From: Bradyrhizobium algeriense
GTDB taxonomy: Bacteria > Pseudomonadota > Alphaproteobacteria > Rhizobiales > Xanthobacteraceae
DNA length: 64,000 nucleotides
Direction of reading: 5' to 3'
NCBI RefSeq assembly: GCF_036924595.1
Contig: NZ_JAZHRV010000001.1
Location: forward strand, 5,642,001 to 5,706,000
Numbering within the stretch: the stretch's first letter is position 1; every line of letters starts with the position of its first letter. The notes beneath the pieces are model-generated. The model did no database searches. It saw only the letters and a list, made by a program, of their open reading frames with translations, and was not told the DNA's origin. Positions 7,385 to 27,315 of this stretch are shown one piece after another. The translations under genes were made by a program, and so were the position numbers.

Positions 7385-8937
7385 TGATCCTCCGCACTGG
7401 ACGACGATGGAGAAGGGGCAGCCGATTCCGGCGACGCTGATGCCGGGCGCCAGCGTTTCTGCCATTGCGCGGCAGCCCGGGATGCACCCGAGCCAGCTGC
7501 GTGGCTGGGCGGGAGGCAAAAGAGCAGCGCGAGGACGAACAGACCCATCAACGCGGCGTAACCACTGGCCGCGGCGAAGGCGCGGCCATAGGCTTCCGCG
7601 TCGGCGGCGCCGGCCGCACGGGCATGGATGAGCACCGTCGTAAACAGGATGCCGACCAGAGCTACGCCGAAGGTGCCCCCCACTTGCTGTGTGGTACTGA
7701 GCATACCCGATGCCGATCCGATGTTGCCATGAGGGATATCGGCGAGAATGGTGTTGAAAAGCGGCGTCACAAGCAGACCCCGGCCAAATCCGAGCAGCAG
7801 CAGACCAGGAATAAGCGCCTCTGCTTGCATTGGCGCCCCAAGCAGCGCCGTACCGGCGGCGGTGCCACTACCGATCACGACAAGGGCCGCACCGGCCGCG
7901 AGCACTTCTCTCCGCTTCTCGGCTGCTGCTCGCCCGGCGATTATCGAGCCAATCATAAAGGCGGCGGGTACAACGGAAAGAATCACAGCAGCGGCCAACG
8001 GCGATCGACCAAGCCCATCTTGCACCAAGAAGACGTAGGCAAGAAAGAAGGAACTATGGGTAGAATAGTAGACGAGTGCTAATACGACACCAATTGTGAA
8101 AGATGGATTTCGGAACAAGTTAGTCTGCAGCAGCGGCGAGTCCTGCCGAGACGACTTGCCATGTTGGTGCCAAGCGAAAGCGGCCAGGATCGGGACAGCA
8201 ACGCCAAGCATGGCCAACGACCAGACCGGCCACCCGGTGTCCGGCCCTTCGACCAACGGGTAGAGCAAAAGTCCGAGGCCGATAGAGCTCAAGACAACTC
8301 CGGTGACATCTAGCCGCTGGCCGGTCGACACTGCATCCACCGGGATTAGCCAGAGCGCTGCCAGGATCGCCAGCAGACCTATCGGGATGTTCACAAGGAA
8401 GATCGGTCGCCAAGCCAACCCCCAAAAGTCGGCGCTGACCAAGATGCCACCCAGCACCAGGCCCACCCCGGCAGCCAGTCCTAATATCATCCCAAGCGCA
8501 GCAAAGGCTTTGGCACGTGTGCCAGCCTCTGTGAACGCAATGTTGATCAGTGCCAGCGCCTGCGGGAATAACACCGCCGCGGTGAGACCTTGCAGCAATC
8601 GGGCCAAGATAAGTGTCATTGTGGTCGGTGCCAGGCCGCAAAGTGCCGACGTGACGGTGAAGCCGGCGAGCCCAAGAATAAACATTCTCCGCCGACCGAA
8701 CAGGTCACCTACCCGGCCGCCTGTAATCAGCATCACGGCATAGGCCAAGCCATAACCGGCGACCACCAGTTGGGCTTCACCAAAGGTCGCCCCGAACTCC
8801 CGTCGAATATCGGGTATGGCGACATTCACAATCATCATGTCCATCACGGTCATGAAGGGGCCAACCAACACCACGGAAAGGTTAAGCCACAACCGAGCCT
8901 GATTCGCCGGAGCGGTGGAGACGGTCAGTTTTCCCAT
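7375..8937 (-). CDS. MFS transporter, DHA2 (EmrB/QacA-like) family
   Basis: A 520-residue, probably 14-segment drug:proton antiporter-type permease. The loop 2-3 motif GGRVGDLFGRRRMF, the segment-4 LARLLQGL and the antiporter motif C-like GMILGLAAGVGLVLGG are present. It is the first gene of the minus-strand operon and overlaps the BKACE gene by ten bases, so it probably exports the operon product or imports its substrate. The C-terminal tail (last 30 residues) is low-complexity Ser/Pro/Ala. A degraded copy of its 3' part lies immediately upstream at 9080-9361. Confidence 0.8.
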   Translation of the reverse strand: MGKLTVSTAPANQARLWLNLSVVLVGPFMTVMDMMIVNVAIPDIRREFGATFGEAQLVVAGYGLAYAVMLITGGRVGDLFGRRRMFILGLAGFTVTSALCGLAPTTMTLILARLLQGLTAAVLFPQALALINIAFTEAGTRAKAFAALGMILGLAAGVGLVLGGILVSADFWGLAWRPIFLVNIPIGLLAILAALWLIPVDAVSTGQRLDVTGVVLSSIGLGLLLYPLVEGPDTGWPVWSLAMLGVAVPILAAFAWHQHGKSSRQDSPLLQTNLFRNPSFTIGVVLALVYYSTHSSFFLAYVFLVQDGLGRSPLAAAVILSVVPAAFMIGSIIAGRAAAEKRREVLAAGAALVVIGSGTAAGTALLGAPMQAEALIPGLLLLGFGRGLLVTPLFNTILADIPHGNIGSASGMLSTTQQVGGTFGVALVGILFTTVLIHARAAGAADAEAYGRAFAAASGYAALMGLFVLALLFCLPPSHAAGSGASRAAAQWQKRWRPASASPESAAPSPSSSSAEDQCQ

Positions 8938-9079
8938 ATGGAGCTCCGACAGGGCGTGATGTTTGGCAACCTGTACAGCAACAATTGCGATGGGCTGTGC
9001 CCGACAACTACATAGGTATGCGGCAACGACGACATTTACTTGTTCTCGCTATGACTCGCGCTATGCGCCTGCATCCAGC

Positions 9080-9361
9080 CTATAGGCTTAAGGGGGCGCA
9101 AGGATAACCAAACCCATTAATCCAGTGTAGCCGCTGACCTCTGCGAAGGTACGGGCATAGGAGCAGGCTTCCCCGGCATGGATTAAGCACCGTCGCAAAC
9201 AGGATGCAGATCAGAGCGACACTGAAGGCGCCTTCTACTGACCGCATGTCCGATGCCGGTCCGAATGTCAGCGAGCATGATGTTGAAAAGCGGCACCACA
9301 AGCAGACCGTGCCAAGCCCAAACAGCAGTAGCCCCGGGATAAAGCGCTTCTGCCTGCATCG
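9080..9361 (-). pseudogene. degraded second copy of the DHA2 MFS 3' end
   Basis: The minus strand begins at MQAEALIPGLLLFG, matching the neighbouring transporter's MQAEALIPGLLLLG, and goes on with recognisable but scrambled GTFGVALVGILFTT-like and SGYAALMG-like segments. Nucleotide similarity to about 7530-7830 is clear by eye, with many substitutions and several small indels that break the frame. It is a relic of a tandem or recombined copy, not a functional gene. Confidence 0.75.
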
Positions 9362-9538
9362 GCCGTAGCCATCTGCTGTACCCGTCACGATACCTTTAAA
9401 AAGACCAAGTACGCACCGCATGCTTGGGAGGTGATTGAGTGCCGCCGCAAAGTGCATCTCGGATGTGGCCGGCTTGGCCAAACACGTATCGACACCGCCG
9501 GCAAGCCATGCACGCACGAGAAGTTCTGCCCCATTCAT
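9362..9538 (-). pseudogene. N-terminal stub of a thiamine-diphosphate (acetolactate synthase-like) enzyme
   Basis: The first 59 residues, beginning MNGAELLVRAWLAGGVDTC, correspond to the N-terminus of acetolactate synthase-like ThDP enzymes: a NGAE start, KPATSEMHF in place of the usual NPGTSEMHF, and ADGYGR with the region after the ThDP-binding glutamate. Exactly after the ADGYGR codons the sequence switches to the MFS relic at 9361, so the rest of the enzyme (about 500 residues) is missing. The open frame runs through both pieces and would give a meaningless chimera. Confidence 0.65.
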
Positions 9539-9691: not shown

Positions 9692-10445
9692 TTGCCGGAG
9701 ACCAGCGTTATCGAAGTGGCACACCGGCATGACGTGCATCCCAATGCTGACGGTTTGGCGGCGGCAGCCCGAACGGGTGCTTTGGGCGCCGGGCAGGCGC
9801 CCCGGCAGGAGGACGAGGTGCACTTTGCGGCGGTTGTATTACGCCTGACGCGACAGGCGGCACGAGCATCCCGTGCAGCATCTGAAGGCCTTCAGCGGCA
9901 TCCTGCAGGCCGATGCCTACAACGGCTACAACGAGTTGTACGATCTCTCGCGCGCGGAGCGGCCGATCACGTCGGCGTTGTGTTGGGCCCGTGCCAGGCG
10001 GCAGTTCTTCGAACTGGCGGGCATCGCCGCCAATGCAAGGCGAGGCAAGAATGCGGGAGCGATCTCGCCGATCGCGCTGGAGGCGGTCGGGCGTATTGAC
10101 GTCCTGTTCGAGATCGAGCGCGGCATCAACGGCGTTGCTGCTGCTGAGCTGACGCGCATCCGTAAGGAGCAAAGCGCGACGCTACTGGAGGCTCTGGAAG
10201 CCTGCGCGAGCAGCATGGCCGCCTATCGCGCTCGGCCTCGGTCGCCGAGCCGATCGACTATATGCTCAAGCGTTGGGACCGGTTCGCCCGCTTCATCGAC
10301 GATGGCCGGATTTGCGTGACCAACAACGCAGCCGAACGAGCCCTGCGCGGCTTTGGGCCGCAAGTCCTGGCTGTTCGCCGGATCAGATCGCGGTGCCGAG
10401 CGTGCTGCCGTCATGGCGACCTTAATCATGACCGCCAAACTCAGA
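9692..10445 (+). mobile_element. internally deleted, frameshifted IS66-family remnant
   Basis: The 5' part encodes an OrfA-like SVIEVAHRHDVHPN segment. After a short scrambled stretch it jumps into the C-terminal half of the IS66 TnpC transposase: HLKAFSGILQADAYNGYN, ALCWARARRQFFEL, SPIALEAVGRIDVLFEIER, then in other frames DYMLKRWDRFARFIDDGRI and NNAAERALRG. At least four frame changes separate these pieces, and TnpB plus the N-terminal half of TnpC are absent. I saw no intact terminal inverted repeats. The element is dead. Confidence 0.75.
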
Positions 10446-10492
10446 TGTCGACCCGCAAGCCTGGCCGAAGCGGCGTGAGCCAAAGAGGACAC

Positions 10493-10866
10493 ATGAGATT
10501 GAGCGGTTTTTCCGCAGCAGAAAAATCGGCCATGACCGCCGCCTGCCAGCTCCTGATCGACGACTTCCTGAAGCCCCCGCTTCCAGCCCCACCATCCGGC
10601 CGACGCAGTTCAACTATCCCGTCGACATCCTCGGCAAGTGGCACGGCACCAAGTATCGCTTCATTCAACGCTACCGCTCCGGTTTCCCGGAGAATCTCGG
10701 CGAAGAGTTTGACGCGCCCTTCGCCCGTCTCGACTGGGTCAGCCGCAACCGCTTCGACCTCCAGTGGCATCGCCACACCGGAGAACGGTTCTGCCTGAAT
10801 CGCGGCCTTACCCTCGCCTAAGCGATTGACACGCTAACGACCGAAGGATTGTTCCATCCCTTTTGA
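10493..10866 (+). pseudogene. DUF3024-like pseudogene
   Basis: An ATG frame encodes MRLSGFSAAEKSAMTAAC and then shifts frame near 10590; the second frame reads IRPTQFNYPVDILGKWHG through RFDLQWHRHTGERF, which resembles DUF3024 proteins. An in-frame TAA at 10819-10821 interrupts the last block, which would otherwise continue AIDTLTTEGLFHPF to the TGA at 10864. DUF3024 genes often lie beside transposase genes in rhizobia, matching its position just after the IS66 relic. One frameshift plus one nonsense codon make it non-functional. Confidence 0.55.
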
Positions 10867-11161
10867 ACATCGCAAGTTCAATTGCCCCGCGGTACTCGCC
10901 TGATGGTTACGCTTTATGCTTGGCGCGGTTCAGCACATGAACAATCACTTGCGGTTACGGACCCAGTGTGGATATGCAACGTTGTATTCGCCATCGCGGA
11001 TCAGCGAAAGGCGCAGCGTTCGCTCCCGAAACTCGCAGGGTGGTCGACCGCAATCCCAAAAATGATTACAAAATGCCAAACGCGGTTCAAGGTCTCCAAT
11101 ATGCGCGGAAGCTTCTTGCGTAAGACAATCTAAAGGAAACGTGTTATCCGGAGACCTCGTT

Positions 11162-12073
11162 ATGGACGATCGTACCAAGTTGTTCGCGCTCCACCAGCAC
11201 GAGCTGAAACTGCTGCCCACGCCGGAAGATGTTCTATTCTACAAAGAACATGGCTACTACGTTTCCGGCACCGTCCTCTCGGAGCAAGAGATCGATCATC
11301 TCCTCGAGGCTGCGAACGCCTACTATGCGGGTCATCGAGATCGGCGCCTTCCGTTCGTTCCCGCCGGGGCCACCTACTGGACGCCCGAAAGCAAAACGAA
11401 ACTTCGACAAAGCAACTACATCACTTATGAATCGAATGTGATGCGCTCTATTCTGCTGAAGCCGCTGATTGGTGCCATCGCTGCCCGACTTGCTGAGACA
11501 CGAGAAACACGATTGTTCATCGATGTTCTTCGCTATAAGGCGCAAGGCCAAGCGAAGGAAACGACAATCGGCTGGCATATTGATCGGCACTATTGGCAGA
11601 TGTTCACGTCCGATGCCATGCTTACAGCCTTCATCCCATTGCATGACTGTTTCGAGGAAGACGGAACGATTATCATGATCGATGGAAGCAACAACTGGCG
11701 TGAAGCGGCGCGCGCCGACGACACCACGGCCCTCCATTTCGCTCAGCGCGATGTTGATGATCTAGAGCGCCGCCTGCACAGCGAAGCCGCGGCCAACAAC
11801 GCTGTTGTCAGGAAGGTTCCTATACGGCTCAAGAAGGGACAGATTAGCTTTCATAACAGCCTCACCTATCACGGCAGCCTTCCTACACAGAATAGCCGGC
11901 CGCGACAGACGATCTCGTTACACTTCCAGGATGCAACGAACCAATATCGGCGTCACGTCTTGGAATCGGGCAAGCTGGCAGGTCACCACACTGCCCAATT
12001 GTGCGCCAAGCAGCCGAACGGCGATCCAGACTATCAGGATCCGGAATTCTTTCCAGTCTTGTGGCGCGAATAG
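11162..12073 (+). CDS. PhyH family Fe(II)/2-oxoglutarate dioxygenase
   Basis: The 303-residue protein is a phytanoyl-CoA dioxygenase-type non-haem iron enzyme. The metal triad is visible as His139-x-Asp141 in WHIDRHYW and His237 in TYHGS, followed by Arg248 in RPRQTIS as the likely 2-oxoglutarate clamp. It would hydroxylate or otherwise oxidise a small molecule, with succinate and carbon dioxide as by-products. The ATG at 11162, after CCGGAGACC, is preferred to the GTG at 11141. Together with the TyrA-like and MFS genes it forms a three-gene plus-strand cassette. The 295 bp upstream hold no gene I can support and presumably contain the promoter. Confidence 0.8.
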   Translation: MDDRTKLFALHQHELKLLPTPEDVLFYKEHGYYVSGTVLSEQEIDHLLEAANAYYAGHRDRRLPFVPAGATYWTPESKTKLRQSNYITYESNVMRSILLKPLIGAIAARLAETRETRLFIDVLRYKAQGQAKETTIGWHIDRHYWQMFTSDAMLTAFIPLHDCFEEDGTIIMIDGSNNWREAARADDTTALHFAQRDVDDLERRLHSEAAANNAVVRKVPIRLKKGQISFHNSLTYHGSLPTQNSRPRQTISLHFQDATNQYRRHVLESGKLAGHHTAQLCAKQPNGDPDYQDPEFFPVLWRE

Positions 12074-12119
12074 GCCACTCATTCCCTCCGTGTCGATGCC
12101 GGTTGATGGAGCTTGGGAG

Positions 12120-13073
12120 ATGGAGGGGAAAACACTGGGCGTGGTTGGCACCGGTCTCATTGGCGCATCGATTCTACGGGCGGTCGAAACAAGATCTCTG
12201 GGATGGACCACCATTGCCTTCGATACAGACGAACAAGCTCTCGCAGTTGTCCGGGAGAATGGCTGGGCCAGCCGCATATGCACTCAGATCGACGAAATGG
12301 CTTCGGCCGACCTCATTGTGGTTTGCGCCCCCCCACGTGATGTCGCCCGGATTGTCGTCGGGCTTGCGGGCGTTATCTCGACCGATTCAATCATCACAGA
12401 TGTGGCCTCTACGAAAGGTCAAATAGTTGCTGACGTCTTTAGTGTCGTTCGGCAAGATTTTCCGTTTATTCCGGGTCACCCGATGGCGGGATCCGAGAGG
12501 TCGGGGCCTGGCAGCAGCAACGCCCTGCTGTTTGAGGGGCGGCCCTGCCTCCTGACGCCAGCGCCTTCAGCTCCCCAAAGAGCTATTGCGGCGGCTTCCT
12601 CGTTTTGGCGAAGCATTGGGGCGGAGACACACCTGATTTCCGCCACAGCTCACGACCGGATAGTCGGTCTCACCTCCCACCTGCCGCATCTGCTCGTTTT
12701 TGCACTTAGTGAGGTCGTCGGCGCGGAAGTCGGACTATCAACTGCCCTGACTCCCTTCGTCGGCAAAGGGTTGGTCGATACCATTCGGATCGGACACGCT
12801 CATCCGGTTATGTGGAAAGACATTTTTCGAGACAACAAGGAGGAACTTCTTAAATGGCTTGGCAGATTTGAAGAAGTCCTTGGTGACTGGCGCCAGCTGA
12901 TTCTGGCGGAAGATCCTGACGGTTTAATGAGCGCCATACGAATTGCGAAGGACAGAGCCGGCGTTATCGTTGAATCTCAGAAAAACGTCGGCGTCGGTTC
13001 GGCGTCGTCGCATAGGTTCGACGTCATGTCGCCCAATAGCTCTACCCTCGTGCCGGCAAGTACGCCCCCGTAA
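12120..13073 (+). CDS. TyrA-like prephenate/arogenate dehydrogenase
   Basis: About 317 residues with an N-terminal Rossmann domain (GVVGTGLIGAS at the start), DVASTKG, the GHPMAGSERSGP substrate motif and LTSHLPHLL in the helical domain. These are the hallmarks of prephenate/cyclohexadienyl dehydrogenases, which oxidatively decarboxylate prephenate to 4-hydroxyphenylpyruvate. The start at 12120 follows GGAG by eight bases. There is no chorismate mutase or aro gene nearby; instead it lies 46 bp after a 2OG dioxygenase and 93 bp before an exporter. A role in a dedicated tyrosine-like or cyclohexadienyl metabolite is therefore more likely than housekeeping tyrosine synthesis; this is inference. 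Confidence 0.8.
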   Translation: MEGKTLGVVGTGLIGASILRAVETRSLGWTTIAFDTDEQALAVVRENGWASRICTQIDEMASADLIVVCAPPRDVARIVVGLAGVISTDSIITDVASTKGQIVADVFSVVRQDFPFIPGHPMAGSERSGPGSSNALLFEGRPCLLTPAPSAPQRAIAAASSFWRSIGAETHLISATAHDRIVGLTSHLPHLLVFALSEVVGAEVGLSTALTPFVGKGLVDTIRIGHAHPVMWKDIFRDNKEELLKWLGRFEEVLGDWRQLILAEDPDGLMSAIRIAKDRAGVIVESQKNVGVGSASSHRFDVMSPNSSTLVPASTPP

Positions 13074-13166
13074 AGCCAGGACCGGCTCCCCTGCGTCTCG
13101 CACCAGGGCACAGTTTGAACGCAGTCGCCTCTGAGTTTTTCCCAATCCGTTAGCGAGAATAAGTCG

Positions 13167-14402
13167 ATGCCGGGAGATGATGGTGGAGGTAGCAGGGAAC
13201 GAAGCGGTCTGACCGCCTATCTTATCCTCATCAGCGTACTTGGGATGGTGCCGATCGATATCTTCCTTCCGGCTGTGCCAGCAATGGCCGATGCCTTTGG
13301 CCTCCCGGCGGCCAGAATACAGGAAGTGTTTCCCGCCTATTTCATCGGTGTTGCGGTGGCACAGTTTTGTTGTGGACCTCTTTCGGATCACTATGGACGA
13401 CGTCCAGTGCTGGTTGGGGCGCTCATCTTAATGTCGGTAGGAGCGCTGATCGCTGCGGTAGCGCCGACATTTTCGATGATGCTGCTGGGTCGGTTTGTTC
13501 AAGGAGTTGGCTGTGGTGTCGCGATCGTTCTCTGGAGGTCCATTGCCTTCGATTTGCTGGACGAGCCGGCAGCGTTTCGAATGATCGCGACTGTGCTTCC
13601 CGCGATTGTCGTATCGCCGGCAATCGCGCCGGTTCTTGGTGGCTTTCTACTGGTGAGTTTCGGTTGGCGGAGCATCTTCGGTGTACTCGCGGCTATTTCA
13701 GTTGGCGCTCTCTTTGTCACGCTGTTGACTTTTGATGAAAGCCTCCAGCACAAAGTGCGGGAACATATTCTCGCGAAAGTTCGATCATCATACCAAAGGC
13801 TCGCCCTCTCGCCATCCTTCTGGCGGCTGATCTGGCTGGTCTGCACGGCCTACTCGGCTTACTTTCTCTATATCGCACAATCTCCATTGCTGTTTACGGC
13901 GCTCGGCTTCCGACCCGAGGTCTTCTCATTGTTCTACATTCCCGTAGCGGCAGGCTTCTTCGCAGGAAGCCGGCTTGCGAGGAACCTGCGCGAAAGCCGA
14001 TCATCGGAATATCTACTGATACTCGGCACTTGCTTGTTTGCAGCAGGCGGAACGATCATTGTCTTGTTTTGCGTGGCCAGGGCCACGCAGACAGCTGCAA
14101 CTCTCATATTCGGATTCTGCCTCGTTGTGATTGGGAACGGAATTACCCTGGCGATCGGCTCCGCCAAGATCATGGCAGAATTTCGCAGCATCGCGGGGAC
14201 GGCCTCAGCGACAATCGGCTTGCTGCAAGCGTTAAGCACCATGGTACTTACGGTTGTTTTGTCACGGATGAACGAAGCGTCAGAGCCGTTCTGGAGCATG
14301 GCGACAATGTTCGGCCTCTGCATTTTGAGCATTGTGGCCGCCTGCCACTCGGCGGTTAATTGCGGGCCAGTTAAAGTGGAAAAAGTAGAAGCGGAGTCCT
14401 AG
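13167..14402 (+). CDS. Bcr/CflA-type MFS exporter
   Basis: A 411-residue DHA1 major facilitator. It shows VPIDIFLPAVPAMADAFG in segment 1, typical of the Bcr/CflA group, and GPLSDHYGRRPVL in the 2-3 loop. Bcr-type proteins export bicyclomycin, chloramphenicol, dipeptides and similar small molecules across the inner membrane. It closes the dioxygenase-TyrA cassette and probably exports the product or provides self-protection. The ribosome-binding sequence is weak (GCGAGAATAAG). Confidence 0.8.
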   Translation: MPGDDGGGSRERSGLTAYLILISVLGMVPIDIFLPAVPAMADAFGLPAARIQEVFPAYFIGVAVAQFCCGPLSDHYGRRPVLVGALILMSVGALIAAVAPTFSMMLLGRFVQGVGCGVAIVLWRSIAFDLLDEPAAFRMIATVLPAIVVSPAIAPVLGGFLLVSFGWRSIFGVLAAISVGALFVTLLTFDESLQHKVREHILAKVRSSYQRLALSPSFWRLIWLVCTAYSAYFLYIAQSPLLFTALGFRPEVFSLFYIPVAAGFFAGSRLARNLRESRSSEYLLILGTCLFAAGGTIIVLFCVARATQTAATLIFGFCLVVIGNGITLAIGSAKIMAEFRSIAGTASATIGLLQALSTMVLTVVLSRMNEASEPFWSMATMFGLCILSIVAACHSAVNCGPVKVEKVEAES

Positions 14403-17634: not shown

Positions 17635-18666
17635 TCAACCGCCGTGATCGAGATCCCCCTCAGCAAGACGGGCAAGAGCGCTGCGTACCTTGCGATCGAT
17701 TTCGATCCCGTCTTGGACGAGACGCGCGCGCGTCCTGTAGCTGCGCTCTCCCGGAATGCGGATTTCCTCCACGCCCATTTGACGCGGCGTCGCTTTGATC
17801 ACGTTGATCCGGCGGGTCACCTCTCGCCGGTAGGCTTCGGTAGGCAGAAAGACTTCGGGTTTGAACACGATGAACATAAAGCCACTAATGTCGTCTGCGG
17901 GCCTCGTGGCCGCGGCCAGCGCACCAAGCGCATCCATGGCCAAGGCGAGACCAAAGCCCTTATAGCCTCCCTCAAGCCCGCCGAACGGCAGCAGCGTGCC
18001 TTGTAGGGCAGTATTGGCATCCGTTGTCGGCTGGCCACTTGGCCCGAGGGCAACCCCCTCCGGGATGGTCGCGCCGAGACGGCCCCTTAACTGCAGGTCG
18101 GTCCACATAAACGCTGAGGTGCCCATGTCAATGACAAGAGGATCGCTTGCGGTTGGAAAGCCAAAGGCGATGGGGTTCGTGCCTAGTGCCGCGCGCGTGC
18201 CGCCGAAAGGAGCCACGAGCGGCGGTATGGAGACCGTGTGAATCACCACGAACCCAGCTCGGGCAATCATTTCGCAATAATAGGCGCTACGCCCGGTCAT
18301 CCAGGTATTGGTGAAACATATGATGGCGAGGCCATTTGCCTCCGCCCGCTCAATCGCGTCCTCGGCGGCGCGGTGGGCCACGAGCATCCCAGTATTGTTG
18401 CCGCCGTCGATCATCGCCGTAAGCTGGGTCTCCCGCGACACCGCGATGGGCCGCCGGGGTTGTCGGAATTGAGGCGCGTCGACGACGTTCAAGACCTTCG
18501 GAAGGCCCGCATATTCGTAACCGCACAGCGCGGCGTCCAGCATGTGGTCCGTCATGATACGCGCATCATCATTGTCATATCCAATGCCGCGCAGCGCCGC
18601 CTCACAGCAGTTGCGCGCTTCGGCGACTGTCAGCCGAACTCGATCTTCGATTGTCCTATTGGCCAT
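17635..18666 (-). CDS. divergent Ldh_2-family oxidoreductase
   Basis: A 343-residue Ldh_2 homologue with APFGGTRAALGTNPIAF, VIDMGTSAF and the C-terminal RIPGERS segment. Unlike the paralogue at 4480, the N-terminal SHGxxR signature is replaced by YAGLPK and the SxHxG catalytic-histidine motif by NTWMTG, so at least one catalytic residue has changed. The start at 18666 gives the family's N-terminus; codons upstream are open but non-conserved. It lies 230 bp after the adenylate-forming ligase on the same strand and converges with the MobB-like gene. The reaction is unknown; an altered substrate, an imine or a non-catalytic role are possible. Confidence 0.7.
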   Translation of the reverse strand: MANRTIEDRVRLTVAEARNCCEAALRGIGYDNDDARIMTDHMLDAALCGYEYAGLPKVLNVVDAPQFRQPRRPIAVSRETQLTAMIDGGNNTGMLVAHRAAEDAIERAEANGLAIICFTNTWMTGRSAYYCEMIARAGFVVIHTVSIPPLVAPFGGTRAALGTNPIAFGFPTASDPLVIDMGTSAFMWTDLQLRGRLGATIPEGVALGPSGQPTTDANTALQGTLLPFGGLEGGYKGFGLALAMDALGALAAATRPADDISGFMFIVFKPEVFLPTEAYRREVTRRINVIKATPRQMGVEEIRIPGERSYRTRARLVQDGIEIDRKVRSALARLAEGDLDHGG

Positions 18667-18695
18667 CTCCGCGCCCCCATTGCATTCTTGATTCA

Positions 18696-18893
18696 CTAAC
18701 GCGCGATGAAGCTCGGATGAATCGTCATCGCGCTTTGCATGATCTTTTCGGAAAGCCGCTTCGCACCTTTCGGGTCCTGCTCTGGCCGATTTCGACGTAC
18801 GGCGGCGGCCGCGACTCGCGCGGCATCCTCGGCTTGAATCCTCTTCCCGCCTCGAATCCACGAGATCGCGCGAGGCAACTTGGACCCTTGCAA
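18696..18893 (-). CDS. possible small protein between ligase and Ldh_2 genes
   Basis: A 65-codon frame starting at TTG just after the ligase stop codon encodes a basic, protein-like sequence (IQAEDAARVAAAAVRRNRP, AKRLSEKIMQSA). No ribosome-binding site precedes it and I recognise no family. It could be the tail of a lost gene or a genuine small ORF; the support is weak. Confidence 0.25.
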   Translation of the reverse strand: MQGSKLPRAISWIRGGKRIQAEDAARVAAAAVRRNRPEQDPKGAKRLSEKIMQSAMTIHPSFIAR

Positions 18894-18896
18894 ATG

Positions 18897-20642
18897 TCAG
18901 ATCGTAGCCGGCTCTAGCAGCGTTGCGAACCTAGTGCGCAGTTCGCGCTTGAGCACCTTCCCAGTGACTCCCACGGGGAAATCCTCCGGACGCCGCGCCA
19001 CTTGCACCGCCGCCAACTGCTCAAGACCGACTTTCGACAAGTGCTCATTGAAGAGCGTGAGCAATTGGCCTTCCGTCGGGATCGTCGCGTCGCGCTGGGG
19101 ACGGATGATGGCAATCGGCCTTTGCCCAAACCTATTGTGGCTCGGCACTCCTACGACAGAACAGTCGAGCACGATCGCTGCGAAATCGGCCAGCAGCATT
19201 TCCTCGATCGGCAGGCTGTAAACCGCACCGAACGGGCCATCGATAACATCTACCGTGCGATCAAGATGGTAGAAGCGACCGTCCTCGTCTCGCCGAGCTA
19301 CATCCCCCGTCAACCAGTAGCCCGAGAGCCTGAACCTCTTGCTCATCTCGGGGTCGTTCCAATAGCCAGGCGTAATGGTTGGCGCCTTGAGTGCTAACAA
19401 GCCTGGCGTTCCGACAGGCTGCTCTTCGCCCGCTTCGTTGACAATGATGGCATGTTCGACCACGCCGATCGGCGACCCGATACATCGATCGTTCCGCTCA
19501 GTTTCCATGGTGAAGTACCCACCGAAGAGCGACATCCCCAATTCAGAGGAGCCGAAGCCGTCGATGAATTGCGAGCCCGGCTGCACGGCTGCCGAAGCCT
19601 CGCCGTCAGCCAGCAAGGCTGGCCTGATCAGTCCGGAGGGCCTTCGCCCCATCGTAACGAGACGACGGATATGACCGTAGTGTGCGCTGTCACCCATATT
19701 GATCCAGGTATGGACTGATGAACAGGCCTCGGTCGGCAGTGGATCAGTCGACAACTCAACGAACGTGCGAGGAAATGACAGGACCATCGTCGGCTTGAAA
19801 ACCTTCATGACGGGCTCAACGACCGTACGGCGCCAGTCGGACATGGCGATCATTGGCAGTCCCATGAGCACCGCGGTCAGGAAGTAGCTCAAACCGCCCG
19901 CGTGAGTATGCGGTACCACAGACATAAGACGATCGTAGGGCTCGGCGGGCAACCGGATCAGGCGCTGCTCCTTCCCGATCCAGAACTGCTTGTGCCCGGC
20001 CATGGTTGGCTTCGGGATGCCCGTGGTCCCCGACGAGTGAACGAGTGCAACGATATCATCGTCCGCGTGAGACACGGGAAACGGTGACGGAAGCACCCTT
20101 TCTCCGCCCTGATAGGCGTGCAGCTCCGACACTGCCGAAATGAATCGAGGACGATAATTTGGATTGTTGCGGAAGGTGGCTTTGAAGGCGGTTGGGTCGT
20201 CACACACAAGCCCGACCGCGCCCACGAGTTGGAGATAGCCGCACGCCGGGGCGACTGCCATGCCATTGTTGATTAAGGCGGCGATCGCGCCCAGGGCCGA
20301 AAGCGCGAGGAACTGAAACATTGGTTCAACGCCCTCGCTCACATATATGCCGACGACGTCGCCTTTCCCGACGCCGTTGGCGTGATACCACGCCGCGTAC
20401 CGGTCGCGTATCGCGACAAGGTCGTCGAGACTATAGGCCGTCAGAATCACGTGGCCATGTGCGTCGAAGCTATGCTTGAAGATCAACGGCACACTATGGT
20501 TCGGGTTGAGCCGAACGGCCCAATCCAGGAAGTTACCTGCGCCGAGGGAGCGCTCTTCTATCATCCGGCGTCGTACAGCCATAGGCGCGATCGGCGTCGG
20601 CTCAGTCGTCGTCGGACCATTCACAAATGACTCGGATGCCAC
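18897..20642 (-). CDS. stand-alone adenylate-forming (acyl/aryl-CoA synthetase-like) ligase
   Basis: A 581-residue ANL-superfamily enzyme with all core motifs: phosphate loop LVHSSGTTGIPKP, GFGSSELGMS, LTGDVARRDEDGRFYHLDR, and the C-terminal catalytic lysine in VTGKVLKREL. It would activate a carboxylate as an acyl-AMP and pass it to CoA, an amine or a carrier; no carrier protein is visible in the window. The GTG at 20642 is chosen because GGAGTGT lies six bases before it, exactly as at the aminotransferase gene, and because the preceding ATG frame (to 20672) lies in the conserved duplicated leader. It is transcribed divergently from the EamA gene. Confidence 0.8.
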   Translation of the reverse strand: MASESFVNGPTTTEPTPIAPMAVRRRMIEERSLGAGNFLDWAVRLNPNHSVPLIFKHSFDAHGHVILTAYSLDDLVAIRDRYAAWYHANGVGKGDVVGIYVSEGVEPMFQFLALSALGAIAALINNGMAVAPACGYLQLVGAVGLVCDDPTAFKATFRNNPNYRPRFISAVSELHAYQGGERVLPSPFPVSHADDDIVALVHSSGTTGIPKPTMAGHKQFWIGKEQRLIRLPAEPYDRLMSVVPHTHAGGLSYFLTAVLMGLPMIAMSDWRRTVVEPVMKVFKPTMVLSFPRTFVELSTDPLPTEACSSVHTWINMGDSAHYGHIRRLVTMGRRPSGLIRPALLADGEASAAVQPGSQFIDGFGSSELGMSLFGGYFTMETERNDRCIGSPIGVVEHAIIVNEAGEEQPVGTPGLLALKAPTITPGYWNDPEMSKRFRLSGYWLTGDVARRDEDGRFYHLDRTVDVIDGPFGAVYSLPIEEMLLADFAAIVLDCSVVGVPSHNRFGQRPIAIIRPQRDATIPTEGQLLTLFNEHLSKVGLEQLAAVQVARRPEDFPVGVTGKVLKRELRTRFATLLEPATI

Positions 20643-20869
20643 TGCACACTCCATCGATTGGACGAACTTCATCAGCGAAACAAGGGTGGCATCCTTAAGT
20701 TGCCGTATTGTGTCAGAAACCGTTTAACACGAAAATGGTGGAAAGTCCACGCGGCCTTGTGGTCGCGAGCGCAGTCAACGTGAGGTCAATATTTCGATGC
20801 CCGAAAACGCGCTTCAACCACTGTACCTGATCGCAATTGAGCCACAGGACATTCACGATCAGCATCTTG
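20643..20869 (-). promoter_or_regulatory. duplicated promoter/5'UTR, copy A (ligase gene)
   Basis: This stretch closely matches 27090-27315 upstream of the aminotransferase gene, in the same orientation and with nearly the same spacing. Shared blocks on the minus strand include TTTTCGTG-TAAACG, TGACACAATA, and the end GGAGTGT followed by six bases and GTG. A 16-bp identity (20854-20869) marks the far end. The pattern fits a common promoter with operator and leader. I cannot assign the binding protein; no known nod box, tts box or Pho box is evident. Confidence 0.65.
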
Positions 20870-21278
20870 TATTGACCCAACAAGTGAAGTCGGGCCGCTC
20901 ATGGCTTGCCGCCACTGGGAAGCTGCCTGAATTTGTCCGACCGAGGTCATGACACCGCAGATCGCGATCTCTGAGATACGGAGCGATCTTCACTTTGCAC
21001 GTGACGGCGATCAAGTTCGACCCAACGCAGCGCTTACGAGCCACACGCCGGGATAAGGTTTACAGGGCAGGCGGACAGATTGGCCGAATAGACCAGATTA
21101 TTATTTGCAGATTGCCCGCGCCGGCAAAGCTGCAAAGTATCCTCTTTCGAGCTTCGCGATGCCATGATTAGCCTGCTTGACGATGACAGTGCCTCACCCC
21201 GAACCGTGGCAACTCGCATGTGGCCGCCATTGTCTATCGGGTCTAACCTGGCGACGCATGGCATAGAGAGTCAATTCC
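20870..21278. other. intergenic region upstream of the EamA gene
   Basis: About 400 bp between the duplicated leader and the EamA start. No protein family or RNA gene was recognised; it presumably carries the EamA promoter. Confidence 0.35.
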
Positions 21279-22187
21279 TTGTCGACACCATCAACCTCCG
21301 AATACGTGCGTGGCTCGCTGTACGGCCTTGCGACCGTGAGCATCTGGGTATCATGGATCGTGGCCGCACGGCTGGGGCTCAGGACAAGCCTCACCGCCTG
21401 GGACATCACGGCCATTCGTTGCGGCGTCTCCGGCCTGATCTTGCTGCCGTTTCTGCTTAAGGTGGGCGTTCCCGCTAGACGACTGGGAGGATTGGGGCTC
21501 GCGGCGATCGTGCTGGGCGGCGGGGCACCGATGGTGTTGGTTTCCTACGCGGGCCTACAATTCGCGCCGGCGGCCCACGCAGCATCGCTATTTACCGCCC
21601 TCATACCGCTACTTGTTGCAATCTTGGCCGCTGTCGTGCTTGGCGAGAGCTTCACCGTTGCAAAGCAGATAGGGCTTGCCTTGATCGTTATTGGTGCCTT
21701 TGTCATCGTCGGTGGCGCAGGCGGCACGATCGGATCGCCGCAGAACATTGGCCACGCCCTGTTCATCAGTGCAGCCATGTTGTGGGCCTGCTATACCGTC
21801 GCCATGCGGAAAGCGAGATTGGAAGGACTTCACGCTGCGGCTATTGCGGCGGTCGGATCATTGATAACTTTCGTACCAGCGTACGCCATCATTTCCGGGG
21901 TCAGTCTGTTCAACGCGCCCTGGCGCGACATTGCTTTGCAAGCCCTTGTTCAAGGATTTCTCACGCCCATTATCTCGTACTGGCTTTACGGACGCGCGGT
22001 CAGCATTCTTGGCGCGTCGAGCGGTTCGGCGTTTGCGGCCCTGAGCCCGGCCATGACGGCAATCGTGTCTATCCCGCTCCTCGGCGAATGGCCAGCAACG
22101 AGTGACTGGATCGCGATACTTTTGATTTCGGGCGGTGTCTACGTTGCAAGTGGAGGCTTGGCCTCGGCCCGACGAGCCGGACACTGA
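21279..22187 (+). CDS. EamA/DMT family transporter
   Basis: A 302-residue ten-segment drug/metabolite transporter with the two EamA halves: LRTSLTAWDITAIRCGVSGL and LGESFTVAKQIGLALIVIGA in the first, and the duplicated WLYGRAVSILGASSGSAFAAL / LLGEWPATSDWIAILLISGG in the second. It opens at TTG after an AGAGAG purine run. It converges with the amine-oxidase operon and diverges from the ligase gene, so it sits in the middle of the 17.6-27.1 kb locus and is the only transporter there. Export of the product is a reasonable guess. Confidence 0.8.
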   Translation: MSTPSTSEYVRGSLYGLATVSIWVSWIVAARLGLRTSLTAWDITAIRCGVSGLILLPFLLKVGVPARRLGGLGLAAIVLGGGAPMVLVSYAGLQFAPAAHAASLFTALIPLLVAILAAVVLGESFTVAKQIGLALIVIGAFVIVGGAGGTIGSPQNIGHALFISAAMLWACYTVAMRKARLEGLHAAAIAAVGSLITFVPAYAIISGVSLFNAPWRDIALQALVQGFLTPIISYWLYGRAVSILGASSGSAFAALSPAMTAIVSIPLLGEWPATSDWIAILLISGGVYVASGGLASARRAGH

Positions 22188-22250
22188 GCAGCTTCTCAAC
22201 AGCGAGAGCATGTAAGATTGCCATAATCAACCATTCTTGCAAAAGCGACT

Positions 22251-23594
22251 TCACGATGATCTCTCATACTCCTTGGCGTCGATCCGGCGGTAATGCAGCA
22301 AGGCGAGAGGTGAAACCCAGCGAATGAAGGTCTGGGCTAGAAGGGGAGCCGGCGAGGAGAAGGGCAACGCGATCTTTTCAAGGGGCACACCGATCGAAGC
22401 CTTCGCCAGTTCCCGGCCTACGGCTATAGAAAGCGCCACCGCCCGGCCATTGCAACCGGCCCAGGCAAATGCGTTGGGCCCGATCGAGTGGAATCGCGGA
22501 AAGCGATCTGGAGTCATTCCGATCCGGCCGTTCCAGACAAACTCGATCTTCAGTCCGCGCGTCTGGGGCCACATCCTTTCCAGCCGGGACGAGATCAGCA
22601 GTTTCAGGCGCGACGGCCGGTCGACCGGGTTGACCACCGCGCCGCCGCTGATCAAACGGTGGTCCGCGTCGTATCTCGCGAAGTGAAGGTCCCCGCGAGT
22701 GTCTGACATTGCCAGACGGGTGGGAAGAATGGAGCGGCGGACCGTTTCGGGCAGCGGCTCGGTTGCGGCCAGCCAGGAAGTCACGGGAACGATCTCGCGT
22801 GCGACGTCCGGCAGCAGCGTTTTTGAGATGGCATCGGTGTAGGCGTTGGTCGCGACGATGAGGCTTTTCGCCCGAACTTCCCCGCGAGTTGTTGTCACGT
22901 GCCAGCAATCGGCCTCACGGTCGAGGGACAACGCCGGGGTTTGCGCATATATGCGACCGCCGGCATCTGACGTGGCTTTAGCCATCGCGCGCACGAGCGC
23001 AAGCGGATTGACGATACCGCCGCTGTTGTTGAGAAGCCCGCCGAACCACATTTCCGATCCGATTGCATGCCTCGTCTGCCCGCGGTCCAACACCTCGACC
23101 CGGGCACCCCATTTTCGCCATTGCGCGGCGCGCCGCTCGATGAGGACCATGCGGCCAGGAGTGTGCGCAGGCTGAAGCCAACCGCTCTGCTCGGCTTGGC
23201 GGTCGAGCCCGAAGGTGCTGGCTATTTCGAACAGGCCGTCGGCACAATCGCGCAACAAGGCCACGAAACGTTCACCGCTCGCCCCATAGTTACGAATGAT
23301 GTCGTCAGGATCAGGTCGCGTTAGCGTCGGAATGACGAGCCCACTGTTACGGCCCGAGGCGCCTGCACCAGGTTCTTGGGCCTCTAGGATCGTCGCCTCG
23401 ACGCCTTGCTGACGCAGCATCATGGCGGCAGATAACCCGGTGAATCCAGCTCCTATGATAAGCACATCAGTCTTTATTGTGCCGACCAATTGCGGGAAAT
23501 CGACCCCCGCCGGCGTCACGGTCTGCCAAAGCGGCTCAGTACAGCCCTTGCCCGTGTATGGCGCGACTCCGCAGAGGCCCAGCCGCGTACGCAT
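22251..23594 (-). CDS. FAD-dependent amine/amino-acid oxidase (DAO, PuuB-like)
   Basis: A 447-residue DAO-family flavoprotein. The dinucleotide-binding VLIIGAGFTGLSAAMML is near residue 45, followed by EAQEPGAGASGRNSG, the signature of the PuuB/OrdL gamma-glutamylputrescine oxidase group; FAWAGCNGRAVALS closes the FAD site. Such enzymes oxidise secondary or primary amines to imines or aldehydes with release of H2O2. Its ATG begins one base after the stop of the PaiB gene, a coupled arrangement. It is the fourth gene of the aminotransferase operon and could oxidise the diamine intermediate. Confidence 0.8.
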   Translation of the reverse strand: MRTRLGLCGVAPYTGKGCTEPLWQTVTPAGVDFPQLVGTIKTDVLIIGAGFTGLSAAMMLRQQGVEATILEAQEPGAGASGRNSGLVIPTLTRPDPDDIIRNYGASGERFVALLRDCADGLFEIASTFGLDRQAEQSGWLQPAHTPGRMVLIERRAAQWRKWGARVEVLDRGQTRHAIGSEMWFGGLLNNSGGIVNPLALVRAMAKATSDAGGRIYAQTPALSLDREADCWHVTTTRGEVRAKSLIVATNAYTDAISKTLLPDVAREIVPVTSWLAATEPLPETVRRSILPTRLAMSDTRGDLHFARYDADHRLISGGAVVNPVDRPSRLKLLISSRLERMWPQTRGLKIEFVWNGRIGMTPDRFPRFHSIGPNAFAWAGCNGRAVALSIAVGRELAKASIGVPLEKIALPFSSPAPLLAQTFIRWVSPLALLHYRRIDAKEYERSS

Positions 23595-23595
23595 G

Positions 23596-24333
23596 CTACC
23601 GATCGAGCCCTTGTGAAACGTCGAATCCAGCCACCGCGGTGTCGGGATTGGTACTACCGACGTCCTCAGTACTGGTCATCGCCGACCCGTACGCCGTGGG
23701 CGGCAGCGCTTCGTCCACCTTCGGCTTCCGGCCGAATGACAAGTCTTCCACCAATGGTCGCGCCGAAAGGCCTACCCGCTCCACCAGATGCGCCGTGGCG
23801 GCGTCGCGATCGGCAGGACTCTTTTCTTGGGAGAGCTTGAAGCGACCTTCCATTTGCTCGATCTCGACGAGAATCCGGCCGATGAGAGGGGCAAGCGTGC
23901 GAACACGCGAATCCTCCTTGTCGAGCACCCAGCCATCTTCGTGGCGCTCCGACTCCTGCGCTAGGCGCGCAATGTCGTCCAAGATGCCCAATCCTGGTAT
24001 CTCAACTTGGCAGCGCCCCTCCACATGCACTGCGACGTAATTCCAGGTCGGCAACTGGCGCGTCACATAGACGCTCGGAGAGATGTACGCGTTGGGCGCC
24101 TGAAAGACGACGTAGACCGAAGCTCCGTCGAGGTCGGCAAGCTGGGGGTTGTTGCGGTCCATGTGACCACGCAGCCGCCAGCTTCCGCCAACCCCTTGCT
24201 CGACCACGAACGGAATATGGCTTGCGCGGAATTGCCCGTCAGCACGGCTGACAATGAGCCCGAGCGGATATGCCTTAATAACGGGGATCACGCGTTCAGG
24301 ATCGTCCTCGCGATAGTTCGGATAGTGATACAT
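23596..24333 (-). CDS. PaiB/FMN_bind_2 family protein
   Basis: The 245-residue product begins MYHYPNYREDDPE and has LIVSRADGQFRASHIPFVV, RQLPTWNYVAVH and MEGRFKLSQEKS, the signatures of the split-barrel FMN-binding family that includes Bacillus PaiB, often labelled a negative transcription regulator. Many members bind FMN and may be enzymes. It lies eight bases after the N-monooxygenase gene and one base before the DAO gene, so it is a true operon member; a direct flavin-dependent step in the pathway is as likely as regulation. Confidence 0.75.
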   Translation of the reverse strand: MYHYPNYREDDPERVIPVIKAYPLGLIVSRADGQFRASHIPFVVEQGVGGSWRLRGHMDRNNPQLADLDGASVYVVFQAPNAYISPSVYVTRQLPTWNYVAVHVEGRCQVEIPGLGILDDIARLAQESERHEDGWVLDKEDSRVRTLAPLIGRILVEIEQMEGRFKLSQEKSPADRDAATAHLVERVGLSARPLVEDLSFGRKPKVDEALPPTAYGSAMTSTEDVGSTNPDTAVAGFDVSQGLDR

Positions 24334-24341
24334 GGCTGACC

Positions 24342-25658
24342 CTAAGAGGCTTGCGGGAGCGATGATTGATTTTCTAGCGCGGCTTCGAGCGACGCGGCAA
24401 TCAAGTCGCTTCGCAGCGACAGAAGGCTGAAGGAGCCGGCGTCACCCATGCCGTGGCTCGTTTCGCACAATCCGTTGAGAAAGACGGGAGGAACCGGAGG
24501 ATCGGAGCGCTTCGGGTGCAGTCGGTAGTCGCGCGCGACCTGCAGCACACCGGCATGATCGGTCAGCAGGCGGCCAGCAAGGGAGGCTAGGATGGGCGGA
24601 AAACGTTCTTGCGCCGCTCCCGGTCCGAGATTGCGGAAGCCGGTCGCAAGGATCACGATGTCGGCATGCAGCTCGCTCTGCTCATGCCGGTGGACCTCCT
24701 CAAGACTAAGCCGCAAACCACTTATGACGTCACCAGCCGACACGATCGTGGTATTAGTCAGGATCCGAACTCTCTCTACGCCGTCCAGCTTCTGTTCGTA
24801 GATCGTAAGATACAATTTTCGAATGACGTCACTATCCGCCGAGGAATAGTTAGTCCGCTTCAGCTGCTCGTCAATCAGGGCCTTGCTTGCGGGCGACGCT
24901 TCGAAATAATAGTCCACATGGCCCGGGAAGTAGACACGATCGCTGAACGGGCTGGTGTCCTTGAGCGCAAAGCCAAAGCTACGCTGAACGCTGACGATGT
25001 CCGCTTCTGGGAATCGGGCCGATAGATCGAGGATCAACTCCACCGCACTCTGGCTGCCGCCAACAACGCAAATGGTTCCCGGCACGCCATGATGTCGCCG
25101 GTACTTTTCAAGCGCCGGAAGATAGCGTGTGAGATGAAATACGCGCTCGCTTTCCAACCCTTCGAACGCTGGCGGCACGAGCGGCGTTCGCCCCGGCGCG
25201 ACGACAAGGCTACGCGCCCGATAGACCTCGCCACTTGAGGTCGAGATCACATATTGCGCTTCGCCGCATCTGCTCTCGATCTTGATGTCAGTCACGGTGC
25301 GGCCATAGTGAACCCAGCGGTCGAAATGCCGCGCAACCCATGTCACATATTGCGCATACTCCTTGCGCAGCGGGAACTCGACTCCGAGATTGAGATACTC
25401 GAACAAGCGACCATGCTTGTGGAGGAAGTTCGTGAACGAGTATCGGCTCAGGGGGTTGCGCGGCGTGACTAGATCCCGCAGCGGGTTGTTTTGAATGTCC
25501 GAACCGCTCAACAACATCGCGGGCTGCCAAGCAGGAGCGTCCATCATTTCAAGAAATGCGACCGAGCGACGCGTGCGACGCTCCTCCAGCGCGGCCGAGA
25601 GAGCAATATTTGCGGGCCCGAATCCGATGCCGACAATGTCGAATGCAGCTTGTGTCAT
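24342..25658 (-). CDS. L-lysine/L-ornithine N-monooxygenase (SidA/IucD/PvdA/RhbE family)
   Basis: A 438-residue class B N-hydroxylating flavoprotein. The FAD motif is atypical but clear, VGIGFGPANIALSAALEE at residues 10-27; the NADPH site is CVVGGSQSAVELILDL near residue 205; the C-terminal LATGFRN closes the substrate pocket. The family hydroxylates the side-chain amine of lysine, ornithine or related diamines using NADPH and O2, usually for hydroxamate siderophores. No siderophore synthetase (IucA/IucC or NRPS) is present here, so the N-hydroxy product must go elsewhere. It is the second gene of the operon, 159 bp after the aminotransferase. Confidence 0.85.
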   Translation of the reverse strand: MTQAAFDIVGIGFGPANIALSAALEERRTRRSVAFLEMMDAPAWQPAMLLSGSDIQNNPLRDLVTPRNPLSRYSFTNFLHKHGRLFEYLNLGVEFPLRKEYAQYVTWVARHFDRWVHYGRTVTDIKIESRCGEAQYVISTSSGEVYRARSLVVAPGRTPLVPPAFEGLESERVFHLTRYLPALEKYRRHHGVPGTICVVGGSQSAVELILDLSARFPEADIVSVQRSFGFALKDTSPFSDRVYFPGHVDYYFEASPASKALIDEQLKRTNYSSADSDVIRKLYLTIYEQKLDGVERVRILTNTTIVSAGDVISGLRLSLEEVHRHEQSELHADIVILATGFRNLGPGAAQERFPPILASLAGRLLTDHAGVLQVARDYRLHPKRSDPPVPPVFLNGLCETSHGMGDAGSFSLLSLRSDLIAASLEAALENQSSLPQAS

Positions 25659-25817
25659 TGATGCTGACTCAGCTCTTGGTTACCGTGCGACATGGGATGG
25701 CCGCCGGAAGGAGAGGATTTACTCGTCTCGGGCGGGCCGGCGACGATTATTCAGTGCAAGCTGGGGCCTGACGACGGGCTTCGTCGGACAGGAGACGAAA
25801 TTGAGAAAACGAGCGTT

Positions 25818-27089
25818 TCAGACTGCGACTTCGAGTCGAGTGGAAACGATTTCATCCAATGCAGCGCACCTGACCCTCTCCAAGCCGTCGCTAAGGGCTG
25901 GCTCCGGTATCGTCAGCGGGGGCATGATCTTCAAGACTTCGTCCCATGGACCGCATGTTTCGACGATAACACCAGCAGCAAGTGCCCGACGCGCAACGGC
26001 TCGGGCAAAGCTACGATCCTGCCATGCGACGCCCTGAAGCATCCCGACGCCGCGAACCGCACCTCCCGTCGCTTGCGCGATCTCTCGCAGCCGCTCGCAC
26101 ATCAGCTTGCCCTTGCTCTCGATCGATTGCTCAAGCGAAGCATCGCGCCATTGGGACAAAGCCTCCGCGCCCGCCACAAACGCTAGATTGTTGCCACGGA
26201 ACGTTCCGTTGTGTTGTCCTGGCTCCCAGACATCGTGTTCTGGACGCATCAGCACGAGAGCCATCGGGAGGCCCAACCCGCCGATTGATTTAGCAAGGCA
26301 GACGATGTCGGGATATAGGTCGGCTCGCTCGAAGCTGAAGAAGGGGCCGGTTCGTCCGCAACCTGTTTGAATTTCGTCGACGATCAAGAGCGCGTTGTGC
26401 CGCCGCGCAAGATCCTGCAAACCACGAAGCCACTCGACGCGTGCTTCATTCAGCCCGCCCTCGGCCTGAAGCGTTTCCACGATAAAGGCGGCAGGCGCAT
26501 CGAAACCGCTGCCGGGATCATTCAGCGCTTGGTCGAGGTAGGCGAGCGTGTCGACGCTCGGGCCGAGATAGCCATCGAAAGGAAATCTGTCCACCCCGAC
26601 GAAAGGCATGCCGGCGCCGCTCCGCTTGCGTCGCGCGCTAGAAACGGCGAGCGCGCCGAGCGACATGCCGTGAAAGCTATTGGTGAAGCTGACAACATTG
26701 GTTCGGGAGGTTACGCGCCGCGCGAGCTTGAGCGCCGCCTCGATGGCGTTCGTTCCGGTCGGACCAGTGAACTGCATGCGATAATCAAGGCCGCGTGGCG
26801 CAAGAATCGTCTCCTGAAACTCGCGGATGAAATTCCGCTTCGCGTCAGTGTAGAGATCTAGCGAATGTAGGACTCCATCCGCTTGCATATATTCGATAAC
26901 GGCCTGTTTCAGTGCGGGATTGTTGTGCCCATAATTGAGAGCGCCTGCACCGGCAAGAAAGTCGATATAAGAGTGGCCGTTTTCGTCTGTTAGCAAATGA
27001 CCCGACGCAGTCCGAAATACGATAGGAATGTCGCGAGAATAAGAGCGAACTTGCGATTCGTGTTGTTCAAAGATTGTTTGAGACCCCAC
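25818..27089 (-). CDS. class III diaminobutyrate-2-oxoglutarate-type aminotransferase
   Basis: About 423 residues, closely EctB-like: FEQHESQVRSYSR at the N-terminus, GAGALNYGHNNP, FTGPTGTNAIEAALKLARR, DEIQTGCGRTG with the cofactor aspartate, and LAKSIGGLGLPM with the PLP lysine. EctB/RhbA enzymes make L-2,4-diaminobutyrate from aspartate semialdehyde, using glutamate as amino donor. The GTG at 27089 is preferred to the ATG at 27122: GGGAG lies six bases before it, the resulting N-terminus matches EctB, and the upstream codons belong to the duplicated leader. No EctA or EctC gene is nearby, so ectoine is not the product. Confidence 0.85.
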   Translation of the reverse strand: MGSQTIFEQHESQVRSYSRDIPIVFRTASGHLLTDENGHSYIDFLAGAGALNYGHNNPALKQAVIEYMQADGVLHSLDLYTDAKRNFIREFQETILAPRGLDYRMQFTGPTGTNAIEAALKLARRVTSRTNVVSFTNSFHGMSLGALAVSSARRKRSGAGMPFVGVDRFPFDGYLGPSVDTLAYLDQALNDPGSGFDAPAAFIVETLQAEGGLNEARVEWLRGLQDLARRHNALLIVDEIQTGCGRTGPFFSFERADLYPDIVCLAKSIGGLGLPMALVLMRPEHDVWEPGQHNGTFRGNNLAFVAGAEALSQWRDASLEQSIESKGKLMCERLREIAQATGGAVRGVGMLQGVAWQDRSFARAVARRALAAGVIVETCGPWDEVLKIMPPLTIPEPALSDGLERVRCAALDEIVSTRLEVAV

Positions 27090-27315
27090 CGTACACTCCC
27101 ACGATTGAACCGATTTCATCATCAGAACACAAGCGTCGCGTCTTTACGTTGCGTTATTGTGTCATGCTTCGTTTAGCACGAAAACGGTCGAGTGTCGACG
27201 CGGCACTGATTGTCGGTGCCGCCGCCAACGAGGACCACTCATTTCGATGAAACAAGACGCCCGAGGCGCCGTGCGCGATAGCGTTGACCCGAGGCCAATC
27301 ACGATCAGCATCTTG
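27090..27315 (-). promoter_or_regulatory. duplicated promoter/5'UTR, copy B (aminotransferase gene)
   Basis: Partner of 20643-20869. The closest 110 bp (27096-27206) match at roughly seven positions in ten, including TTTTCGTG-TAAACG, TGACACAATA and the GGAGTGT ribosome-binding block; a 16-bp identity ends the match at 27300-27315 and a 9-bp ATTTCGATG block lies at 27241. Because upstream DNA is conserved as well as the short stretch that could be coding, the conservation is best read as regulatory. Confidence 0.65.

Follow-up and report, generated by a model that had tools for sequence, protein, structure and literature searches.

A Bradyrhizobium algeriense gene cassette with a predicted diaminobutyrate N-hydroxylase and a PaiB-family protein, a candidate for five-membered-ring N-N bond formation

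Introduction

Few enzymes form a bond between two nitrogens. This work describes a gene cassette of Bradyrhizobium algeriense, located at positions 17,635 to 27,315 of a 64,000-nucleotide stretch of DNA (the window), which lies within one 8.1-Mb contig (G000:C1:5642001-5706000). The cassette combines a diaminobutyrate aminotransferase, a SidA-like N-hydroxylase and a PaiB-family protein, and two described systems are closest to it. In the piperazate pathway, which has an ornithine supply, the N-hydroxylase KtzI and the heme-dependent piperazate synthase (PZS) KtzT (also PipS, SbPZS and LnzB) lead to a six-membered ring. The actinopyridazinone pathway contains the L-2,4-diaminobutyrate (DABA) N4-hydroxylase Apy11, the hydrazine synthetase Apy9, which forms an intermolecular N-N bond, and the oxidase Apy10. 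According to a 2024 review (PMC11705231), Apy11 hydroxylates DABA and neither lysine nor ornithine, KtzT and PAI2 turn N4-hydroxy-DABA into 5-aza-L-proline in vitro as a non-native activity, and no enzyme is confirmed to form aromatic N-N heterocycles such as pyrazoles directly.

An earlier note on this DNA had proposed that an N-hydroxylated diamino acid is oxidised to an oxime, nitroso or N-N product, by a route matching no pathway known to it. That last claim was too strong, since characterised relatives exist for the first two steps (Apy11-type DABA hydroxylases and the KtzI-KtzT pair), although no described pathway with this gene combination was found in the open-access literature searched. 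The note had listed the N-N option, but it did not recognise the PaiB protein as the pointer to it: the "FMN split-barrel protein" is indeed a PaiB-family member, and its kinship with PZS was missed. Since KtzT and PipS belong to the PaiB family, this protein points to N-N bond formation.

Results

Core operon and proposed pathway

The core of the cassette is a minus-strand operon (27122-22251) containing four genes. The first encodes an EctB-type diaminobutyrate--2-oxoglutarate transaminase (25818..27122), followed after 159 bp by a SidA-like FAD/NADPH N-hydroxylating monooxygenase (24342..25658; PF13434, 285 bits), after 8 bp by the PaiB/FMN_bind_2 family protein (23596..24333; PF04299, 128 bits) and after 1 bp by a DAO-family FAD oxidase (22251..23594; PF01266, 214 bits). 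Three further genes encode an AMP-forming ligase (ANL), an Ldh_2-family oxidoreductase and an EamA-family exporter. All seven genes are uninterrupted open reading frames (ORFs) and their Pfam and NCBIfam domains, as well as their positions, agree with the earlier note. The cofactor and catalytic motifs sought in SidA, EctB, DAO, ANL and PaiB are all present.

The best-supported reading, held at about an even chance, is that the cassette is a dedicated five-ring variant of the pair formed by an N-hydroxylase and a PaiB-family N-N enzyme. All substrates and products, and the roles of the ligase, Ldh_2 and EamA, are predicted. EctB would convert aspartate semialdehyde into DABA, and the SidA-like enzyme would convert DABA into N4-hydroxy-DABA. 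The PaiB protein, with heme as in piperazate synthases, would close the ring: the alpha-amine would attack the activated N4, water would leave and pyrazolidine-3-carboxylate (5-aza-proline) would form. This analogue of a cyclic imino acid would then be oxidised by DAO, either to a pyrazoline or to pyrazole-3-carboxylate. Further changes to the acid would be made by the ligase and Ldh_2, which have the same leader type, and EamA would act as exporter of the product.

Diaminobutyrate synthesis and N-hydroxylation

EctB passes the cut-offs of TIGR02407 (593.7 bits, cut-off 552.2) and NF006733 (618 bits, cut-off 438) and shows the pyridoxal-phosphate (PLP) site motifs. The SidA-like protein reaches no NCBIfam cut-off. 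Named genomes were scanned with a SidA alignment, and the best 80 of 233 confirmed relatives were used for the locus counts given here. The window SidA belongs to a clade of 84 rows, mostly paired with a DABA aminotransferase (SH-aLRT support 99, quick tree): a DABA-type aminotransferase is located within 1.5 kb of SidA in 69 of the 80 loci, within 4 kb in 72 and anywhere in the locus in 75. None was found at 22 more distant SidA loci of the same family as the window SidA (28-39% identity), for which the flanks covered 1.5 kb. This grouping, in a tree built without Apy11's own sequence, places the window SidA in a clade with the partners expected of an Apy11-type enzyme, and a DABA N4-hydroxylase is predicted. 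Diaminobutyrate synthesis and N-hydroxylation, as the earlier note had proposed, are supported. Ten Pseudomonas loci (L061, L064, L073, L076, L077, L080, L082, L083, L085 and L094) show SidA and a DABA aminotransferase with neither a methionyl-tRNA synthetase (MetRS)-like gene nor PaiB in the flanks examined; in L064 an EamA exporter then follows (Pfam).

Conserved neighbourhood

A MetRS-like gene of the hydrazine-synthetase type is present in 38 of the 80 loci (Pfam-tested in two, L051 and L067, the former with a cupin gene as well), and PaiB is present in 22, adjoining SidA in 21. Both occur only in L117, where the MetRS match is 22% identical and perhaps just an ordinary MetRS; 10.5 such loci would be expected if the two were independent, kinship being uncorrected. 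PaiB and the MetRS-like gene avoid each other among DABA-hydroxylase loci, which is a pattern of alternatives. Three loci show none of aminotransferase, MetRS and PaiB. No match to the MetRS-like gene of the MetRS/cupin pathway was found in the window or in its 12-kb and 20-kb flanks.

The 22 PaiB loci contain a Rieske oxygenase (21), TauE (19), HpaB (18), an AFG1-type ATPase (17), a tautomerase (17) and DAO (15). Similar clusters are found in Pseudomonas, Photorhabdus, Chromobacterium and Burkholderiaceae, and the loci also include ones of Bradyrhizobium, Paraburkholderia, Mycetohabitans and Azohydromonas. The annotated order in Mycetohabitans rhizoxinica is TauE, HpaB, Rieske, diaminobutyrate transaminase, SidA, PaiB, ZapE and tautomerase. 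Among named genomes, the operon has its closest relative in Bradyrhizobium sp. BR 10289 (L047; SidA 76%, EctB 77% and PaiB 72% identical), and L041 of genome G095 shows 70, 73, 58 and 61% for SidA, EctB, PaiB and DAO, respectively; the remaining 78 SidAs are 42-54% identical to that of the window. Both L047 and L041 have MFS and flavin-reductase genes between PaiB and DAO, in contrast to the 1-bp gap of the window, where no significant match to remnants of Rieske, HpaB, MFS or flavin-reductase genes was found. Because HpaB and Rieske are absent and PaiB and DAO are only 1 bp apart, the window version is shorter; its pathway may end at an earlier step, or the ligase and Ldh_2 may divert it.

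In L047 the DAO gene is split over two frames (L047:14750-14843), by a frameshift or a sequencing error. Both loci also show an unannotated ORF between EctB and SidA (L047:9304-9987 and L041:13536-13886), 36% conserved and with no Pfam match. It was considered as a MetRS tail and rejected, since it neither matched Pfam nor aligned clearly. Pseudoiodinine was discarded as the product of the Pseudomonas cluster, the psd genes being of other kinds (PMC9911603), and so were KinJ-type heme enzymes, whose source showed neither PaiB nor DABA in its abstract and in a term search (PMC12154649).

Residues and relatives of the PaiB protein

The PDB matches of the window PaiB are NohD, PZS and PaiB. Its H57, T96 and K166 correspond to His61, Thr102 and Lys173 of PZS, so that the heme-ligand His and the Thr-Lys dyad are kept, as are N62, E170 and K171. 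In the tree, 27 stand-alone PaiBs form their own clade, which excludes the window PaiB (support 98/94), and the regulator 2ol5 is on an open fork.

Shared leader, ligase, Ldh_2 and exporter

The ligase gene (18897..20672; AMP-binding domain, 109 bits) and the Ldh_2 gene downstream of it (17635..18861; NAD(P)H oxidoreductase, PF02615, 268 bits) are farther down on the minus strand, and the EamA gene (21279..22187, plus strand; PF00892, 113 bits) is between both units, where the earlier note had placed one exporter. Its description of Ldh_2 as divergent was wrong, since the strand is that of the ligase. The "same promoter type" given there for both units, and with it their connection, agrees with the genome search: the EctB leader (27086..27315, minus strand) and the ligase leader (20639..20869, minus strand) are 71% identical over 230 bp (E 3.6e-17), the similarity continues into the initial codons of each gene, and the next-best genome matches to the EctB upstream region have E values of at least 0.1. 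The core motif TTCGTGNTAAACGN5TGACACAATA shows two sites with up to three mismatches in the 8.1-Mb genome (27155..27182 and 20706..20733, both on the minus strand), and none in the reversed control. Among 200 random 300-mers of the window the best second match was mostly at or below about 34 bits; six exceeded 50 bits, due to other window repeats. No Rfam match to an RNA element was found in the leaders up to E 0.5. This leader is the sole tie of the ligase and Ldh_2 to the EctB operon, to which they are assigned because of it.

The nearest named family of the ligase is that of the ATP-dependent diazotases AvaA6 and CreM. It scores 325 bits with the AvaA6 model NF058622, far below the cut-off of 975, and 153 with the next model. 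Its relatives adjoin CreE/CreD-like or aminohydroxybenzoate genes, whereas no CreE/CreD-like pair was seen between 17.6 and 27.3 kb. A Streptomyces plasmid cluster (L161) contains a relative of the window ligase and an HpaB 49% identical to that of L041, with Ada and methylguanine methyltransferase genes. No SHG motif, which is typical of Ldh_2, was seen in the window protein, whose PDB matches include, at lower rank, a delta1-piperideine-2-carboxylate reductase. The sole early Met in its frame is at codon 66, which may for this reason be the true start.

NikD aromatises a cyclic imino acid, and L-proline dehydrogenase and L-pipecolate oxidase also act on such substrates. The fold of DAO is nearest to glycine oxidase, L-proline dehydrogenase and sarcosine oxidase, and also resembles NikD, at 16-20% identity; a cyclic imino or hydrazino acid is its predicted substrate. 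By sequence no PDB match was found at 1e-10. Its best NCBIfam model is L-pipecolate oxidase AmaA (250 bits, below the cut-off of 600); PuuB, which the earlier note had named, was outside this comparison. The DAO tree is compatible both with one line and with separate lines for the window and Pseudomonas-type DAOs.

Neighbouring genes

IS66-like transposase remnants are present at 9873-10798, with near-identical stretches on Bradyrhizobium plasmids; DNA matches to the region are mainly to such plasmids (three of four records, in the IS-like stretch). A second small-molecule gene group (901-9538, minus strand) contains genes for MFS, GNAT, a PLP decarboxylase, Ldh_2, cupin, MFS and a truncated thiamine-pyrophosphate enzyme. 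The decarboxylase is closest to the DABA decarboxylase RhbB (200 bits, below the cut-off of 900), and this Ldh_2 keeps the usual motif. Genes for a PhyH dioxygenase, a prephenate-dehydrogenase-like protein and Bcr/CflA efflux are in a row at 11141-14402 (plus strand). A symbiosis-island reading was rejected, as it had a single weak NifH-family match (28 bits).

Discussion

The cassette resembles the piperazate pathway in the adjacency of an N-hydroxylase and a PaiB-family protein with the conserved heme His and Thr-Lys dyad, and differs from it in having a DABA aminotransferase instead of an ornithine supply, a predicted five-membered ring and no non-ribosomal peptide synthetase (NRPS). With the actinopyridazinone pathway it shares the predicted N-hydroxylation of DABA and an FAD oxidase of the same broad superfamily, but its N-N bond would be intramolecular. 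Several findings weigh against a dedicated five-ring cyclase. The PZS pocket residues Asn63, Ala100 and Tyr150, found in four solved PZSs, are replaced by D59, L94 and R143, and the window PaiB was not filed as a PZS because of them. It is outside the PZS clade, as sister of PZS and NohD on a weak branch (94/76), and its fold match does not separate synthase, dehydratase and regulator, as the scores for NohD, PZS and PaiB differ by no more than about 1 Z (18-19.3). A PaiB regulator keeps the His, Asn, Thr and Lys without N-N activity (PMC13274692). On the genomic side, the window lacks the Rieske and HpaB genes that 21 and 18 of the 22 PaiB loci contain, and the nearest ones in the genome are distant (Rieske 34%, partial length; HpaBs 36 and 28%). 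DAO was not found in the PaiB loci of Photorhabdus, Mycetohabitans, L122 and L070. The earlier note had held that its proposal would fall if conserved neighbourhoods showed these genes apart: EctB, SidA, PaiB and DAO are together in other genera, but neither the ligase nor Ldh_2 nor EamA was found in any of the 80 loci, whether among the 22 with PaiB or the other 58.

The PaiB protein could instead be a dehydratase like NohD and turn N4-hydroxy-DABA or another hydroxylamine into an imine and then an aldehyde, with no N-N bond. Fold and heme site are the same, NohD is the top phmmer match (6.8e-24) and its forms are in the topmost, though tied, fold Z rows, R143 at the PZS Tyr position is the Arg of NohD, position 94 is bulky in both, and according to PDB titles NohD was converted to a PZS by A59N/V96A/R144Y among other changes. 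Of the alternatives this is the most probable, though it is unlikely. Against it, NohD groups with PZS and not with the window clade (100/98), and the window protein has an acid instead of Ala59, and E170 and K171 instead of the Asp and Leu (Leu172) of NohD. In addition, hydrolysis of the DABA imine would regenerate aspartate semialdehyde, the substrate of EctB, so that next to EctB the pathway would be circular. For this reason N-N closure is preferred to dehydration, and the avoidance between PaiB and MetRS-like genes and the activity reported for KtzT and PAI2 on N4-hydroxy-DABA speak for it as well. Less probable is a regulator or a flavin or heme accessory protein, with DAO oxidising N4-hydroxy-DABA to an oxime, nitroso or nitro product. 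PaiB regulators bind heme (PMC13274692), and the 18 of 80 loci with an aminotransferase and neither MetRS nor PaiB, which also count against the five-ring proposal, suggest that hydroxy-DABA may have other fates; but PaiB is inside the SidA operon, adjoins SidA in nearly all the loci that contain it, and is apart from the stand-alone PaiBs.

A remnant locus, decaying or rebuilt, whose original product needed the lost Rieske and HpaB steps, is very unlikely. Both genes are carried by L047 and L041, and IS66 and truncated genes are nearby, but the seven ORFs are uninterrupted, their motifs are mostly intact and the two units share a leader. An ordinary hydroxamate siderophore or ectoine locus is the most improbable explanation. 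Enzymes of the SidA/IucD and EctB/RhbA types serve such pathways, but the window SidA clusters neither with PvdA nor with the siderophore-like SidAs in its family. A genome-wide search found neither IucA/IucC nor an NRPS condensation domain, both being detected in control genomes; the siderophore or NRPS use was therefore rejected, and the synthetase that the earlier note had named as refuting its proposal was not found. No EctA or EctC was found among the Pfam-scanned ORFs, no genome-wide search for them having been made.

The five-ring proposal can be extended to a rhizobial enzymatic route from aspartate semialdehyde to aromatic pyrazole-3-carboxylate, aromatised by DAO and activated as the acid by the diazotase-like ligase, with the Asp59/Leu94/Arg143 PaiBs as a new class of five-ring N-N cyclases in alpha-, beta- and gammaproteobacteria. 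This extension is tentative and rather unlikely. The five-ring route itself, so far seen solely as an in vitro side reaction of a related enzyme, would on the best-supported reading be dedicated here. If this is true, several genera contain a natural, dedicated equivalent of the side reaction that KtzT performs on N4-hydroxy-DABA, and positions 59, 94 and 143 offer a handle on what distinguishes heme N-N cyclases from dehydratases. A proline analogue or a pyrazole acid would be a candidate signal or antimetabolite near plants or insects.

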